DNA from: Gammaproteobacteria bacterium
GTDB taxonomy: Bacteria; Pseudomonadota; Gammaproteobacteria; Arenicellales; JAANXG01
Assembly: GCA_024639325.1 (NCBI GenBank)
Contig: JAHEIO010000006.1
Span: 17,601-77,304, forward strand
Direction: 5' to 3'
DNA length: 59,704 nucleotides
In this document: positions 5,441 to 11,703 of the stretch, one piece after another
Layout of the letters: the number at the start of each line of letters is the position of its first letter
How positions within the stretch are numbered: the stretch's first letter is position 1
Notes under the pieces: generated by a model
The model's input: only the letters and a program-made list of their open reading frames with translations
Told to the model about the DNA's origin: nothing
Database searches by the model: none
Position numbers and translations under genes: made by a program

Positions 5441-6067
5441 TTATACTTCTTTGTTGTTTTGATTTATGACCTGTTTTAGCTGCCGATCGTGAAGCGCCGA
5501 CAGCGTCGACAGGGCTATGATCGAGCCCAGCATTGCCAGTCCCATGTCGGACTGGGTATCCCACTCGTAGCCCTGAGTCCCGAGGAACTGCTCCGCCGAT
5601 CCGCCGTAGAGCATCGCGACCCACCATTCGATCAGTTCATAGAATGCGCTGACCGCGAGACAAATCGATACCACGATGAAAGACAGCCAAACCCGGCCGT
5701 TCACCACCTCGTTGCGTATCAGGATCTCACGAGCCACGATTGCCGGGGTGAATCCCTGCGCGAAATGCCCCAATTTGTCGTAGTTGTTTCTTTCCCAGCC
5801 CAACAGCTCGGACAATCTGTCGAAAGCGGGCACCTCGGCGTAAGTATAGTGACCGCCCACCATGAGGATCACGCAGTGGATCAGGATCAGGGTATAAAGA
5901 AGCGGCGTCAGCGGAAACGTCTTTCTCGTCGATGCCATGATAATCAGCGCGATGACGGCCGGCAGTACCTCGAGCACCCAAGTTGGATAATCCCGTGGCG
6001 AGATGGCGGACCAGACCAAGACAGAGCAAAAAATGATCAGCCAGATGGCTGTCAAGCTCCGCGTCAT
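5441..6067 (-). CDS. YjdF/DUF2238-like integral membrane protein
   Basis: 208 residues with about six membrane segments. It carries the family signature of DUF2238: GGHYTYAEVP near residue 72, YDKLGHFAQGF near 96 and FYELIEWW near 142, with charged residues buried in the membrane region. The molecular function is unknown. Its ATG overlaps the stop of the upstream GTPase gene (bases 6064-6067), so it is the last gene of a three-gene operon with two dynamin-like GTPases. That coupling suggests a shared membrane role (inference). Confidence 0.83.
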   Translation of the reverse strand: MTRSLTAIWLIIFCSVLVWSAISPRDYPTWVLEVLPAVIALIIMASTRKTFPLTPLLYTLILIHCVILMVGGHYTYAEVPAFDRLSELLGWERNNYDKLGHFAQGFTPAIVAREILIRNEVVNGRVWLSFIVVSICLAVSAFYELIEWWVAMLYGGSAEQFLGTQGYEWDTQSDMGLAMLGSIIALSTLSALHDRQLKQVINQNNKEV

Positions 6068-7629
6068 TTTTCACCTCCGGGGCGCACTTTTTCGGGAAAT
6101 GCAGCCAACAGTGCCTTCCTCTTCTTGATGAGAACATCCAGCGCCTGTGTCAATGAGCCTTTGATGACATGCGCCGCCTTGCCAAGACCGGAATGGATGC
6201 CGCGCCGCGCCGCATCGCGCAAGGACGGTCGGAGCCAGCGGGACATCAGGAATGGCACGAACCATGACAGTCCGATCATCAATAGACTGTGTACCGCAAA
6301 GTCGATGCCAAGAAATGCATTTTCACCCGAGATGCCCTGCTGGTAGCGCGAAACGACATTCCATGCTACCCAAAACCCCGCGAGTATGGGCAGCAGGTAG
6401 ACCGATACGTCCATGGCTCGCCTCGCCACGCGTTGCGCAGTTCCCTCGGGAGCCTTCATGGCATCCGCGAGACCGTTGCGAATTTCCGCAAGGATCAGCT
6501 CTCCGGCGTTGTCGAGGGCGTCCTGCAGGCTTGCCCGCAAAGGTCCGCTCCGGACACCCTTTTCCTCGACCCTGAGCGCCATATCCACTGAAATGTCGGC
6601 GATCAGATCGTTTGTATAGGCCGTTCCGATGGTTTTCGATATCTGCTGTTCCGGTAACACGGGTGGAATCGGGTCTGCGCGCCATATTGCCGGCCGGGGG
6701 GGATACTGCTGTGCAATGATCTCCAAGTCTGCAGCGAGGCGTTCCCCATAGATGTCAAGTCGCCGCCCTATTTGTTCCTCGCACTGGTCACGCAGGACCT
6801 CCCAGTCTCTAAAAGACCCGAGTCTGCGGCGCATATCGTTTGCAGTCTTATCCAGTTCCTCCAGCCGAGCCAGCACTCCGATACGCTGGAGCTCCGCGAG
6901 CCCGTGGTCTTGTATGGCTTTATTGATGATGTCCTCGAGCCGATCGAAATCATCGTCACGCGCCAGCGTACAGCTCGTTCGCAGCACCAGGGGAGCGCTG
7001 AATCCCGCGGCGACGAGATCCGCGGCAAAATCGGGTAACTGGACGTCAACGGCCTCGTCCCAGCGATTGACCACAAACAACCAGTGGTGTTTCCGGTGGC
7101 GGTGTTCCAACAGTTGCCAACCTATGTCGTCGCGATATCGTTCCGGGCTAACCACGTAGACCAGCCAGTCGACATAGGGCAGCCAGGCCAGGACCAGGCG
7201 CCGGTTGCCGGCCTCGACACTGTCGATATCGGGCATATCCAGCCAGGCCACCTCCCGCCGGGCCTCGACGTCATGGTATTCGACCCGCGTATCCGCGATG
7301 GGACTGCCCTCGGCAAAGACATTCAATGCCTGGCTGCGGTGCACATACATCGTTGCCTCGGTCGAGGTCGGGCGCCTGACCCCCACCTTGGCGACCGGGT
7401 GCCCCGCGAGCCGATTGAGCAGGCTGCTCTTGCCCACTCCGGTTCCGCCCAAGAACGCAACGATCAGGGGCCGGCGGTCCCGATCATGGAAGAGTTCCGT
7501 TGCGAAGTCGGTTTCCATGGTGTGTAATTCTTCGAGGTCACGTTCTGTCAACCAACCCGCAGCTTGAGCCTCGGCCGCCCATGCCCTGACCTTGTCGTAT
7601 TGTTCCCGGAACTCTCTGCTCAAAAGCAA
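6064..7629 (-). CDS. Membrane-anchored dynamin-like GTPase (second of a pair)
   Basis: 521 residues. The GTPase domain shows P-loop GGTGVGKSS (61-69), a switch-I-like Thr region STEATMYVH (about 89-97), G3 DMPDID (131-136) and G4 NRWD (188-191). An alpha-helical middle region follows, then two hydrophobic segments (about 410-430 and 447-466) and a short basic tail. This layout matches bacterial dynamin-like or FeoB/Era-related GTPases that work at membranes. The gene overlaps the upstream GTPase gene by 10 bases and the downstream YjdF-like gene by 4. The specific family is not recognised. Confidence 0.85.
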   Translation of the reverse strand: MLLSREFREQYDKVRAWAAEAQAAGWLTERDLEELHTMETDFATELFHDRDRRPLIVAFLGGTGVGKSSLLNRLAGHPVAKVGVRRPTSTEATMYVHRSQALNVFAEGSPIADTRVEYHDVEARREVAWLDMPDIDSVEAGNRRLVLAWLPYVDWLVYVVSPERYRDDIGWQLLEHRHRKHHWLFVVNRWDEAVDVQLPDFAADLVAAGFSAPLVLRTSCTLARDDDFDRLEDIINKAIQDHGLAELQRIGVLARLEELDKTANDMRRRLGSFRDWEVLRDQCEEQIGRRLDIYGERLAADLEIIAQQYPPRPAIWRADPIPPVLPEQQISKTIGTAYTNDLIADISVDMALRVEEKGVRSGPLRASLQDALDNAGELILAEIRNGLADAMKAPEGTAQRVARRAMDVSVYLLPILAGFWVAWNVVSRYQQGISGENAFLGIDFAVHSLLMIGLSWFVPFLMSRWLRPSLRDAARRGIHSGLGKAAHVIKGSLTQALDVLIKKRKALLAAFPEKVRPGGEK

Positions 7630-9320
7630 ACCTCCTTTTTCAGGCGCTCCAACCTGTCGAGATCCTCGGCATCGACAAGAAACAATCCGGCAGCGGAGGA
7701 TCGACTTGGAAGCTCGATCAGGGTATCCCGCACTTCCTTGCGAAACAGCTCCCGGACTAGGGCACGCTGGCGATCCAACAAGTTGTCCCGTACCGATTCC
7801 ACGTACTGACCGACGGCGCTCTCGGTCAGCATCGATGTCAGCGACAGCATGGCCGGAGTCAGCAACGCGTCCGTTACGCCCACCGTGCCGGTCTTGACCG
7901 CGAATATCACACCTGCGGTGTCGGCAGCTACGCGGCTGGCACGCAACGTGTTCAGCACCAAGGGATTTTCCTTGAGGCGCGCGTAGAGAGACCGCGCCGC
8001 ATCCTCTATTTCGGGTTCGAATGTCGCCTGGTATCGCTTAACGGCATCGATGAAGCCGAGTTTCAGGCTTTCCGAGGCCCCGCCATAAGACCGATTCAAG
8101 CTGCGCCACCAGGCACCCGCCTGGCCCGGATCGTCGGTGCCCTGCACGATCACGGCATGTAGAGACAAAAGCGCATGATCCCTAACGTCGTTCAGGATGG
8201 TAGCTTCCGCATCTCCCCGGGCCTTGTGGCTATCGTCGTCGAACAAACCGGTAAATCTGCGCAGCGGCCAGGTCAACACATTCCGGGTTTTTGTCAGCGG
8301 CCCGGCCAGGGCCGGAATCTCGAGCAGTTCCAGTAACTGCACCACCGCCTGCTTGAAAGCGTCGTTGTGACTGGCGTGGTCGAGGTACTGCTCTTCGTAT
8401 GTGGCCATTGCATCGTTCAACCGCCGGCCTACTTCACGCTCCCAGCTATTCGCGGCGTTGATTTCGGCCATGACCGGATTCAGCCAATCCAGCCAGTTCC
8501 TCTCGATGACGGCACAGAGGCCAATCAAGCGGCACGCTTCATCGCAACGATGCCCCGAGTCCAGGACCGTGCTTCTCAACAACTCGACTTCCGGTATCTT
8601 CGACAGTGACTGATAGGCGTCCTTTTGCGGGGTATAGGGCAGAACGACAACAGGAACCTCGTCATCCCATTCCGATTCACGTAACCGCTCGCGGACGGCT
8701 TCAGCCAGGACTTCCTGGTCTGAGGATACCTTGTTCAGACAAACGACTAGCTTCCGGTCGAGCGGGCGGAGCGCATCGAGCGTTTCCCAGACCGATAGGT
8801 CGGCGTACTTCTCCTTGCTGACCACCAGCACGATGACGTCCGCCAGACCGCCCACCTTTGCAATAAGCGTCCTGTAGTCGTGCGAGCGATGAGAGTCGAA
8901 ATCAGGTGTATCCCAGACCACGGCGTCCGGTCCGGCCTGATGTTCGACCTTTTCCAGGCGCAGGTGCTCGTCACTAAATATTTCACCAATCCACCCGAAA
9001 TCCTCACCGTGCCGAGATTGCACGAATCCGTTGAGTTCCCTGGTAAAAGCCGCCAATGGGCTGGACTCGGCCTTGTGGATTCCGAGCAGGAGATTGACCA
9101 CCGTACTCTTGCCGGCCTGTGTCGGCCCGATTACCGCGACCTGTAGGGGAGACACGCCGGCCGCTCTGCGCACGAGACGTTCACCCAGCAAGGTTTCCGC
9201 CAGGATCAACGTCAGCAGGGTTCGGCTCCGGCTCGACGAGTGTTCAGGGATTTCCCGATATGTTCCGACCAGCCTCTGAATGAACATACGCAGCGGCCCG
9301 GCGGCGGGATGATCGGTCAT
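7620..9320 (-). CDS. Dynamin-like GTPase (first of a pair)
   Basis: 566 residues. P-loop GPTQAGKST at 65-73, G3 DTPDFDSH at 137-144, and a G4 candidate NKVS at 196-199 in which the usual specificity Asp is replaced by Ser. A long helical stalk-like region follows, and a moderately hydrophobic segment near 480-520 could be a membrane paddle. Its sequence differs clearly from its neighbour, so the two are not a recent duplication; tandem unequal dynamin-like proteins often act as hetero-oligomers (known for other pairs, inferred here). First gene of the operon; it is divergent from the DUF1820 gene with a 121-base gap. Confidence 0.85.
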   Translation of the reverse strand: MTDHPAAGPLRMFIQRLVGTYREIPEHSSSRSRTLLTLILAETLLGERLVRRAAGVSPLQVAVIGPTQAGKSTVVNLLLGIHKAESSPLAAFTRELNGFVQSRHGEDFGWIGEIFSDEHLRLEKVEHQAGPDAVVWDTPDFDSHRSHDYRTLIAKVGGLADVIVLVVSKEKYADLSVWETLDALRPLDRKLVVCLNKVSSDQEVLAEAVRERLRESEWDDEVPVVVLPYTPQKDAYQSLSKIPEVELLRSTVLDSGHRCDEACRLIGLCAVIERNWLDWLNPVMAEINAANSWEREVGRRLNDAMATYEEQYLDHASHNDAFKQAVVQLLELLEIPALAGPLTKTRNVLTWPLRRFTGLFDDDSHKARGDAEATILNDVRDHALLSLHAVIVQGTDDPGQAGAWWRSLNRSYGGASESLKLGFIDAVKRYQATFEPEIEDAARSLYARLKENPLVLNTLRASRVAADTAGVIFAVKTGTVGVTDALLTPAMLSLTSMLTESAVGQYVESVRDNLLDRQRALVRELFRKEVRDTLIELPSRSSAAGLFLVDAEDLDRLERLKKEVCF

Positions 9321-10549: not shown

Positions 10550-11554
10550 TTAGGAGCGGCGGTCCCGCCGGGATTGTTCAGATAATCCCCGGCAATCGGG
10601 GTCGTCCGTCAACTGCCTCAACGTCGGCGCCATTGACAGGTCCCAGCCCCGGGGGAAGCGGATCCTTTCATCGTCAGCGAAGAAACTGTGCGCCAGGTGC
10701 ACCAGCGAATTTGCGCTGCAGCGGGCAAGGCGATCGACATAACTCAACTGACTGCGTTCAACGTCCTTCGAAAACCCGCCGCCAACAATCCCCCAGCCGG
10801 AATCCCAAGGCATTGCCTCGACCTTGTTCAGCGCCAGGATGTCACGAACTATGTTGCCTTTGATGAATCCAAGTCCGCGCAAATCGGATTTCCCGCACAG
10901 GTCCGGATCCACCCTTCCCCTGCGACACATTACCCAGACTTCACCCGCATACAGATAGGCGTCGATGGGAACATCCTGCGGGTCGAAGTCGACAGCGAGC
11001 GCCTGGCACCGCAGCGCATCCAGCTGGGTATCGACGCGCACCCAATATTTATCGGCGTCCGACCAGTACTCGCAAATCCAATAGTCCTCGAATCGACCCT
11101 GCCGTACATAAGGCGCGAAACCGCACCTCAGTCGCGCGGCGACGTTCTGTGTCCGCAGGATGCTGCACAGAAGTAATCCAGCATTCCGGGAGGTTCCGAC
11201 TGCGCGCAGTTCCGGCGGCCGTGCTTCGGCAATCGAGCCGCCCTGGAGATGCTGGACCGAATCCAGTATTTCGACCACTGTCCGGGCCTGCAGCTCGGAG
11301 TAAACCCGGTCTTCCGGAATGGATGCCCGGTAATCCGAAATCCAGCCGGGATGGATGATCAGGCCCTGCACGATTCGACAGAGCTCCTCGATATCGCCGG
11401 GCAACCTGGACAAAGATTCCCCGTAGCGCCCCGGCTCCGATGTTTCGCCATGGGATTTGAAATATTCAACGAACGGATTCATCCGGTACGGAATGCTTTT
11501 GTTGGCGTCATCCAGGTTTTTTTTGCCGTAATGGACGGTAACGGGTTGGCTCAT
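10550..11554 (-). CDS. Transglutaminase-fold protein lacking the catalytic Cys and His
   Basis: 334 residues from the ATG at 11554; a GTG 12 codons upstream is possible. The domain around residues 117-180 matches a bacterial transglutaminase-like family that I recall as having GNCRDF, FEDHWVCEYW and VDAQLD blocks. Here the same blocks read GTSRNA, FEDYWICEYW and VDTQLD, so Cys is Ser122, His is Tyr158 and only Asp175 remains. The fold is therefore probably kept for binding, not peptide-bond chemistry. The final codons lie in a GC-rich palindrome (10552-10575). Confidence 0.8.
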   Translation of the reverse strand: MSQPVTVHYGKKNLDDANKSIPYRMNPFVEYFKSHGETSEPGRYGESLSRLPGDIEELCRIVQGLIIHPGWISDYRASIPEDRVYSELQARTVVEILDSVQHLQGGSIAEARPPELRAVGTSRNAGLLLCSILRTQNVAARLRCGFAPYVRQGRFEDYWICEYWSDADKYWVRVDTQLDALRCQALAVDFDPQDVPIDAYLYAGEVWVMCRRGRVDPDLCGKSDLRGLGFIKGNIVRDILALNKVEAMPWDSGWGIVGGGFSKDVERSQLSYVDRLARCSANSLVHLAHSFFADDERIRFPRGWDLSMAPTLRQLTDDPDCRGLSEQSRRDRRS

Positions 11555-11703
11555 TCTATACGACTGCGATCTCAAGAATAACCCGGGCACAGCTCCGCCC
11601 GGTGCAAAATACGGGGTAAGTTCTTGGCGTGGATAGCTTCATCGGTCACAATAGGCAACTGCCGGTCCGATCTACCGGGCAGCCGGAACCAACTCCCGAT
11701 TCA

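Follow-up and report, generated by a model that had tools for sequence, protein, structure and literature searches.

Most bacterial genes for dynamin-like proteins (DLPs) have been reported to be paired in operons (PMC6104087). In Campylobacter, the adjacent genes of Cj-DLP1 and Cj-DLP2 encode the subunits of a 2:2 heterotetramer (PMC6104087). In Streptomyces, DynA and DynB interact and stabilise Z-rings, and DynB has two transmembrane segments (PMC6104087, PMC8748795, PMC6428758); their partner SsgB is actinobacterial-specific (PMC8748795). Here we describe a pair of GTPase genes from a marine gammaproteobacterium (assembly GCA_024639325.1), which is located on a stretch of 59,704 nucleotides of contig JAHEIO010000006.1 (positions 17,601 to 77,304), called the window in the following. 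The pair is a real, conserved two-gene dynamin-like module, probably a DynA/DynB-type pair placed outside the actinobacteria, and its two proteins share an unusual G3 motif.

The gene pair and its downstream neighbour

The two GTPases, P0001 and P0002, are encoded together with a third protein, P0003, in one operon of overlapping genes with the following features:

7620..9320, minus strand: P0001, 566 aa, the upstream GTPase, predicted to be soluble, with a GTPase domain and a helical stalk (DynA-like)
6064..7623, minus strand: P0002, 519 aa when read from the TTG at 7623, the downstream GTPase, predicted to be membrane-anchored (DynB-like)
5441..6067, minus strand: P0003, 208 aa, integral membrane protein of the DUF2238/YjdF type, encoded downstream of the pair in this lineage only
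7631..7637, minus strand: Shine-Dalgarno sequence AAGGAGG of P0002, 7 nt 5' of the TTG at 7623
7620..7623, minus strand: TTGA overlap of the P0001 stop and the P0002 start, with an equal 4-base overlap in many homologues
6064..6067, minus strand: ATGA overlap of the P0003 start and the P0002 stop, joining the two open reading frames (ORFs)

The conservation of the pair was analyzed in a main sample of 369 gammaproteobacterial genomes, and convincing matches to both GTPases were counted as a pair. Both were found in 26 genomes (about 7%), P0001 was upstream of P0002 in all 26 cases, and the two genes were directly adjacent in 24 of them. In the window's own family P0002 was present in 12 of 13 genomes, and P0001 lay beside it at the loci. 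The only match in a sample of 299 genomes from the phylum was the window genome itself, and thus the pair is sparse. Within lineages it keeps its genomic place. The distance matrices of P0001 and P0002 from 21 loci were correlated with r = 0.95, a value that was reached by none of 2000 permutations; this is evidence of joint inheritance, but not of contact. Split pairs were seen at L106 (genome G740), L107 (G649) and L035 (a Granulosicoccaceae metagenome-assembled genome, MAG), and adjacency is, therefore, not strictly required.

Two further ideas about the pair were rejected. An ORF of 1109 aa at L029, which would have been a gene fusion and a proof of interaction, has an upstream part that is an out-of-frame reading of P0001. 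A link to sulfur oxidation had been prompted by the names of related MAGs, but dsrA was present in 7 of the 26 pair genomes versus 118 of the 369, and soxB in 11 versus 152, and thus the pair genomes are not enriched for sulfur oxidation. Internal stop codons were flagged in P0002 relatives at L057 (G530) and at loci of the P0002 family in G454 and G684. Genome G008 encodes a second, solitary P0002 paralogue (L048:8926-10554), which has no P0001 partner, lacks the hydrophobic hairpin in its C-terminal region and lies 3' of a gene for a P-loop (ArsA-like) ATPase.

All three genes of the operon are real, P0001 and P0002 having relatives at 30-50% identity and P0003 matching DUF2238. The original prediction, which was made from the sequence of the window, had described three genes with overlaps of 10 and 4 bases. 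The three minus-strand ORFs and the 4-base overlap were found again, but the 10-base overlap depended on an assumed TTG start of P0002 at 7629. The start is almost certainly the TTG at 7623, because of the spacing to AAGGAGG, the TTGA overlap and the starts of the homologues, which lie two codons downstream of the 7629 reading. The overlap of P0001 and P0002 is thus 4 bases and not 10.

The third gene does encode the DUF2238 membrane protein that had been proposed. P0003 matched PF09997 with an E-value of 2.5e-59 (residues 38-178 over model positions 1-140, the whole model), hydropathy indicated several membrane spans, and H73, D97, H101, E144, E147, D170 and D174 were invariant across P0003 and nine relatives. 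In this full-length match P0003 resembles the DUF2238/Wok family of the lipocone superfamily, whose members are proposed to be phospholipid head-group enzymes, some of them cardiolipin synthases (PMC12419801, which does not mention dynamins); a link between DUF2238 and dynamins has not been published.

A gene-neighbourhood analysis of homologues had been suggested as a check of a three-gene system, and its outcome was divided: the GTPases were indeed paired and not single, but the YjdF-like gene was absent from the pair. Among 35 pair-bearing genomes, DUF2238 was encoded anywhere in 15, namely at a place other than the pair in 13 and next to it in only two, the window genome (G000) and the near-identical G001, which belong to one genus; the remaining 20 had none. 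In G002 and G003, two sister genomes, other genes lie 3' of the pair, and P0003 is, therefore, a local addition. No third gene was conserved across families; the neighbours of the pair are lineage-specific, and the conserved unit is the two-gene pair and not the trio. A three-gene system with the DUF2238 protein at its core is highly improbable in view of these counts, even though G001 has the same DUF2238 neighbour and the ATGA overlap in the window makes translational coupling of P0002 and P0003 likely. A local functional link of P0003 with the pair in the window's genus is possible.

Motifs, membrane segments and fold models

Both GTPases passed the Pfam cut-off for MMR_HSR1 (21.9 bits), with 33.9 bits for P0001 and 25.5 bits for P0002. 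The G1 P-loop is canonical in both, and GxxxxGKS is invariant. The motifs and segments are located as follows:

9105..9128, minus strand: P0001 G1 P-loop GPTQAGKS, residues 65-72; GPTQxGKS in 23 of 23 sequences
8892..8912, minus strand: P0001 G3 DTPDFDS, residues 137-143; DTPDFDS in 21 of 23 sequences, DSPDFDS in 2
8724..8735, minus strand: P0001 G4 NKVS, residues 196-199; N and K invariant in 23 sequences
7806..7934, minus strand: P0001 helical hairpin at the stalk tip, about residues 463-505, including ALLTPAMLSLTSMLTESAVGQYV; candidate membrane paddle
7219..7239, minus strand: P0002 G3 DMPDIDS, residues 131-137 in 521-aa numbering; DMPD[IM]DS in 22 of 22 sequences
7057..7068, minus strand: P0002 G4 NRWD, residues 188-191; N and D in all 22 sequences
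6352..6417, minus strand: P0002 transmembrane segment 1, about residues 405-426, from hydropathy; model helix 397-433
6244..6312, minus strand: P0002 transmembrane segment 2, about residues 440-462, from hydropathy; model helix 442-465

The canonical DxxG of G3 is replaced by DxPD in all 45 sequences (23 of the P0001 family and 22 of the P0002 family), and thus P0001, with DTPDFDS, has an Asp at the position of the Gly. This exchange of DxxG for DxPDxDS in both proteins is the more striking change and had not been mentioned before; the original prediction had concentrated on NKVS as a hint at altered nucleotide specificity. NKVS is indeed present at G4 of P0001, and a relaxed specificity is plausible, but the motif is not peculiar to the window protein. 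Its fourth position is degenerate across the 23 sequences (S in 12, P in 3, D in 3, A in 2, and G, T or N), and thus NKVS reflects a loosening of G4 throughout the family. In the P0002 family G4 reads N[HQR]xD in 22 of 22 sequences. Neither family keeps the canonical NKxD: the D is present in only 3 of the 23 P0001 sequences, and the K is never present in P0002.

Stalks and membrane segments had been expected in both GTPases. The membrane segments were borne out for P0002, which has two spans, but not for P0001, for which hydropathy revealed no span long enough to cross a membrane; the tip of its stalk is conserved but no more than moderately hydrophobic. In this hairpin K476, G478, P489, A490 and E500 are invariant, residues 476-485 at its tip have low confidence in the model, and it is a candidate membrane paddle.

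AlphaFold models were calculated from alignments of 22 sequences for P0002 and 23 for P0001, and the mean predicted local distance difference test scores were 82.9 and 82.0, respectively. Both models contain a G domain that is followed by long helices, i.e., a stalk. Foldseek searches of the Protein Data Bank (PDB) placed BDLP, the Cj-DLP pair and LeoA on top for P0001 (E-values from 4e-7 to about 1e-5). For P0002 the first ranks were taken by IniA, the Cj-DLP pair and BDLP (about 1e-9). A sequence search of the PDB with both proteins yielded only generic G-domain matches and no closer solved relative. Synteny, AlphaFold models and Foldseek together supported the proposal of two unequal dynamin-like GTPases, and their molecular class is fairly secure; the cellular role discussed below is a putative one. 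The window genome encodes two more DLP-like proteins of about 660 aa, which match Dynamin_N (L109 and L110, on contigs C293 and C281), and the motifs of L109 are canonical (DTPG and NKVD).

Actinobacterial relatives

Outside the class, tblastn detected one further region, which is part of an 11.85-Mb record of Nonomuraea gerenzanensis (NZ_LT559118.1, L112). It contains a pair in the same order as P0001 and P0002, with an ATGA overlap and followed by ssb. The first gene encodes an 897-aa GTPase with DTPDIDS, no NKxD and a long N-terminal extension. The product of the second gene, a GTPase of 540 aa, carries DLPDHDS and NQAD and has two membrane spans near its C-terminus. The same pair, again followed by ssb, is present on MT837334.1 (L113), a faecal scaffold of actinobacterial type that is filed as phage. 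A phage-borne pair was nevertheless rejected, since this scaffold is unannotated and 'UNVERIFIED', and its pair-then-ssb order matches the Nonomuraea chromosome. Both records are apparently misfiled, as the 11.85-Mb 'plasmid' NZ_LT559118.1 also looks like a chromosome.

Both proteins of the actinobacterial pairs carry DxPDxDS, as P0001 and P0002 do. The first members passed Dynamin_N with 43.9 and 35.6 bits. The P0001 and P0002 profiles matched the actinobacterial pair proteins at 5e-11 to 4e-26, whereas the two canonical DLPs of the window genome matched them only at 9e-4 or worse. The P0001 profile also discriminated between the two actinobacterial partners, with 60-66 bits for the first (A) versus 30-31 bits for the second (B). 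In an unrooted G-domain tree the P0002 relatives were united with actinobacterial B with a support of 98/94. Together with the profile preference this supports orthologous G domains, and A and B would therefore seem to represent two ancient lineages that were kept together, although the long branches call for caution.

The actinobacterial pair shares with P0001 and P0002 the adjacency, the order, the two C-terminal spans of the second protein, DxPDxDS in both proteins, and the N-x-x-D at G4 of the second but no NKxD in the first. It differs in the ssb gene 3' of the pair, in stalks that are not recognisably similar by sequence, and in the long N-terminal extension of the Nonomuraea protein (897 aa), which P0001 lacks. 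This pair upstream of ssb is most likely the DynA/DynB locus. We take sven2472 to be dynA and sco2683, next door, to be ssbB; under this assignment the locus of Nonomuraea would be dynAB, and its gammaproteobacterial counterpart would be the pair of the window. The gene sco2685 corresponds to sven2472 (PMC3765725).

Proposed mechanism and comparison with known systems

P0001 and P0002 are probably the two obligate subunits of a dynamin-like GTPase machine that is of the DynA/DynB type and would act at the inner membrane. P0002 would be anchored in this membrane via its two-helix hairpin at the end of the stalk, and the soluble P0001 would join it from the cytoplasm, contacting lipid via the conserved stalk-tip hairpin. 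The two proteins may pair via their G domains, their stalks or both. Assembly driven by nucleotide would then tether, stabilise or bend the inner membrane, with division septa and sites of membrane damage as the most likely places. P0002, which has kept N-x-x-D, would be the guanine-reading subunit, whereas the task of P0001 with its relaxed G4 may be chiefly a structural or regulatory one. P0003 would have joined the operon recently in the window lineage and would at most tune the surrounding lipid. The analysis shows the genes with their co-conservation and order, the membrane spans, the motifs, the class of fold and the kinship with an actinobacterial pair; from these we infer the heteromer, its use of nucleotide, its activity on membranes and its site of action. 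A septal role is favoured because of the kinship with the actinobacterial pair.

Several points weigh against this proposal. The Dynamin_N cut-off of Pfam (27 bits) was reached by neither GTPase (22.7 and 21.1 bits), and GTP hydrolysis is not assured, because the canonical DxxG is absent. Global TM-scores to solved DLPs were low, about 0.2-0.34 by query length, which may be attributed partly to hinge angles; the stalk match is thus suggestive and not proof, and stalk homology across families was not found by sequence. In two genomes of one family other genes intervene between the partners, which lie about 2.5 kb apart in G649 and about 10 kb apart in G740. In addition, no neighbour ties the gammaproteobacterial pair to division, and equating the actinobacterial locus with dynAB of Streptomyces is partly an assumption.

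The main rival of a septal role is a role in membrane stress, in which the pair would be a repair tether like IniA, DynA of B. subtilis or Cj-DLP1/2, unrelated to division and recruited on perturbation of the inner membrane. The high structural ranking of IniA and the Cj-DLP pair for P0002 is in line with it, and the patchy occurrence, in about 7% of the sampled class genomes, suits an accessory protective role. However, both the sequences and the arrangement of the genes indicate kinship with the actinobacterial pair and not with IniA or Cj-DLP, no stress gene was consistently linked to the pair, and we regard this explanation as possible but rather unlikely.

A function in defence against phage, as a module of the Leo/dynamins type, is suggested by the presence of LeoA among the structural matches and by LeoA matches in PADLOC (4e-8 and 1.4e-8). 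The latter were weak and partial, covering residues 51-226 of P0001 and, as the best stretch, 7-88 of P0002, and no full-length match to LeoA or LeoBC was obtained. Defence is very unlikely also because those neighbours in the window that could be identified are ordinary genes (RimO-type radical SAM, thioesterase, SDR, FMN-binding, HAD and DUF1820), the position of the pair is stable within lineages, and no proteobacterial plasmid or genuine phage record carried the pair. The window also contains an ORF of 346 aa without a Pfam match (10550-11590, minus strand), which is flanked by the RimO-type radical SAM gene and the HAD hydrolase gene and by eye resembles a transglutaminase-type protein.

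To return to the two-subunit machine, a bolder version can be offered tentatively and is in our view doubtful: a dynamin-like clade with DxPDxDS would span Pseudomonadota and Actinomycetota and represent an ancient two-subunit membrane machine that was retained outside the actinobacterial divisome. Its partners would be unequal in guanine reading, and the soluble one, a near-pseudo-GTPase or a user of another nucleotide, would work only as part of an asymmetric heteromer with the membrane-anchored GTPase. The shared DxPDxDS and the split G4 lead to specific, testable predictions on nucleotide use.

Of the known systems, BDLP, IniA and LeoA share with P0001 and P0002 the G domain and the helical stalk by fold comparison, but no sequence relation beyond generic G-domain matches. 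Cj-DLP1 and Cj-DLP2 resemble the window pair in their side-by-side genes and unequal subunits, and their structures (5oxf, 5owv) were among the top matches, but they are larger, with 84.5 and 71.2 kDa (PMC6104087), and belong to a different sequence family. Streptomyces DynA and DynB, compared by their published description, are like P0001 and P0002 encoded in a DLP operon, and DynB likewise has two transmembrane segments. The recruitment route of the gammaproteobacterial pair must differ, because SsgB is specific to actinobacteria. DynA/DynB are known as a sporulation-division pair of Streptomyces, and, if a matching pair indeed exists in non-sporulating, Gram-negative gammaproteobacteria, the core job would have to be broader than sporulation, and a comparison of the two lineages could separate the core, an anchored GTPase with a soluble partner, from lineage-specific recruitment.

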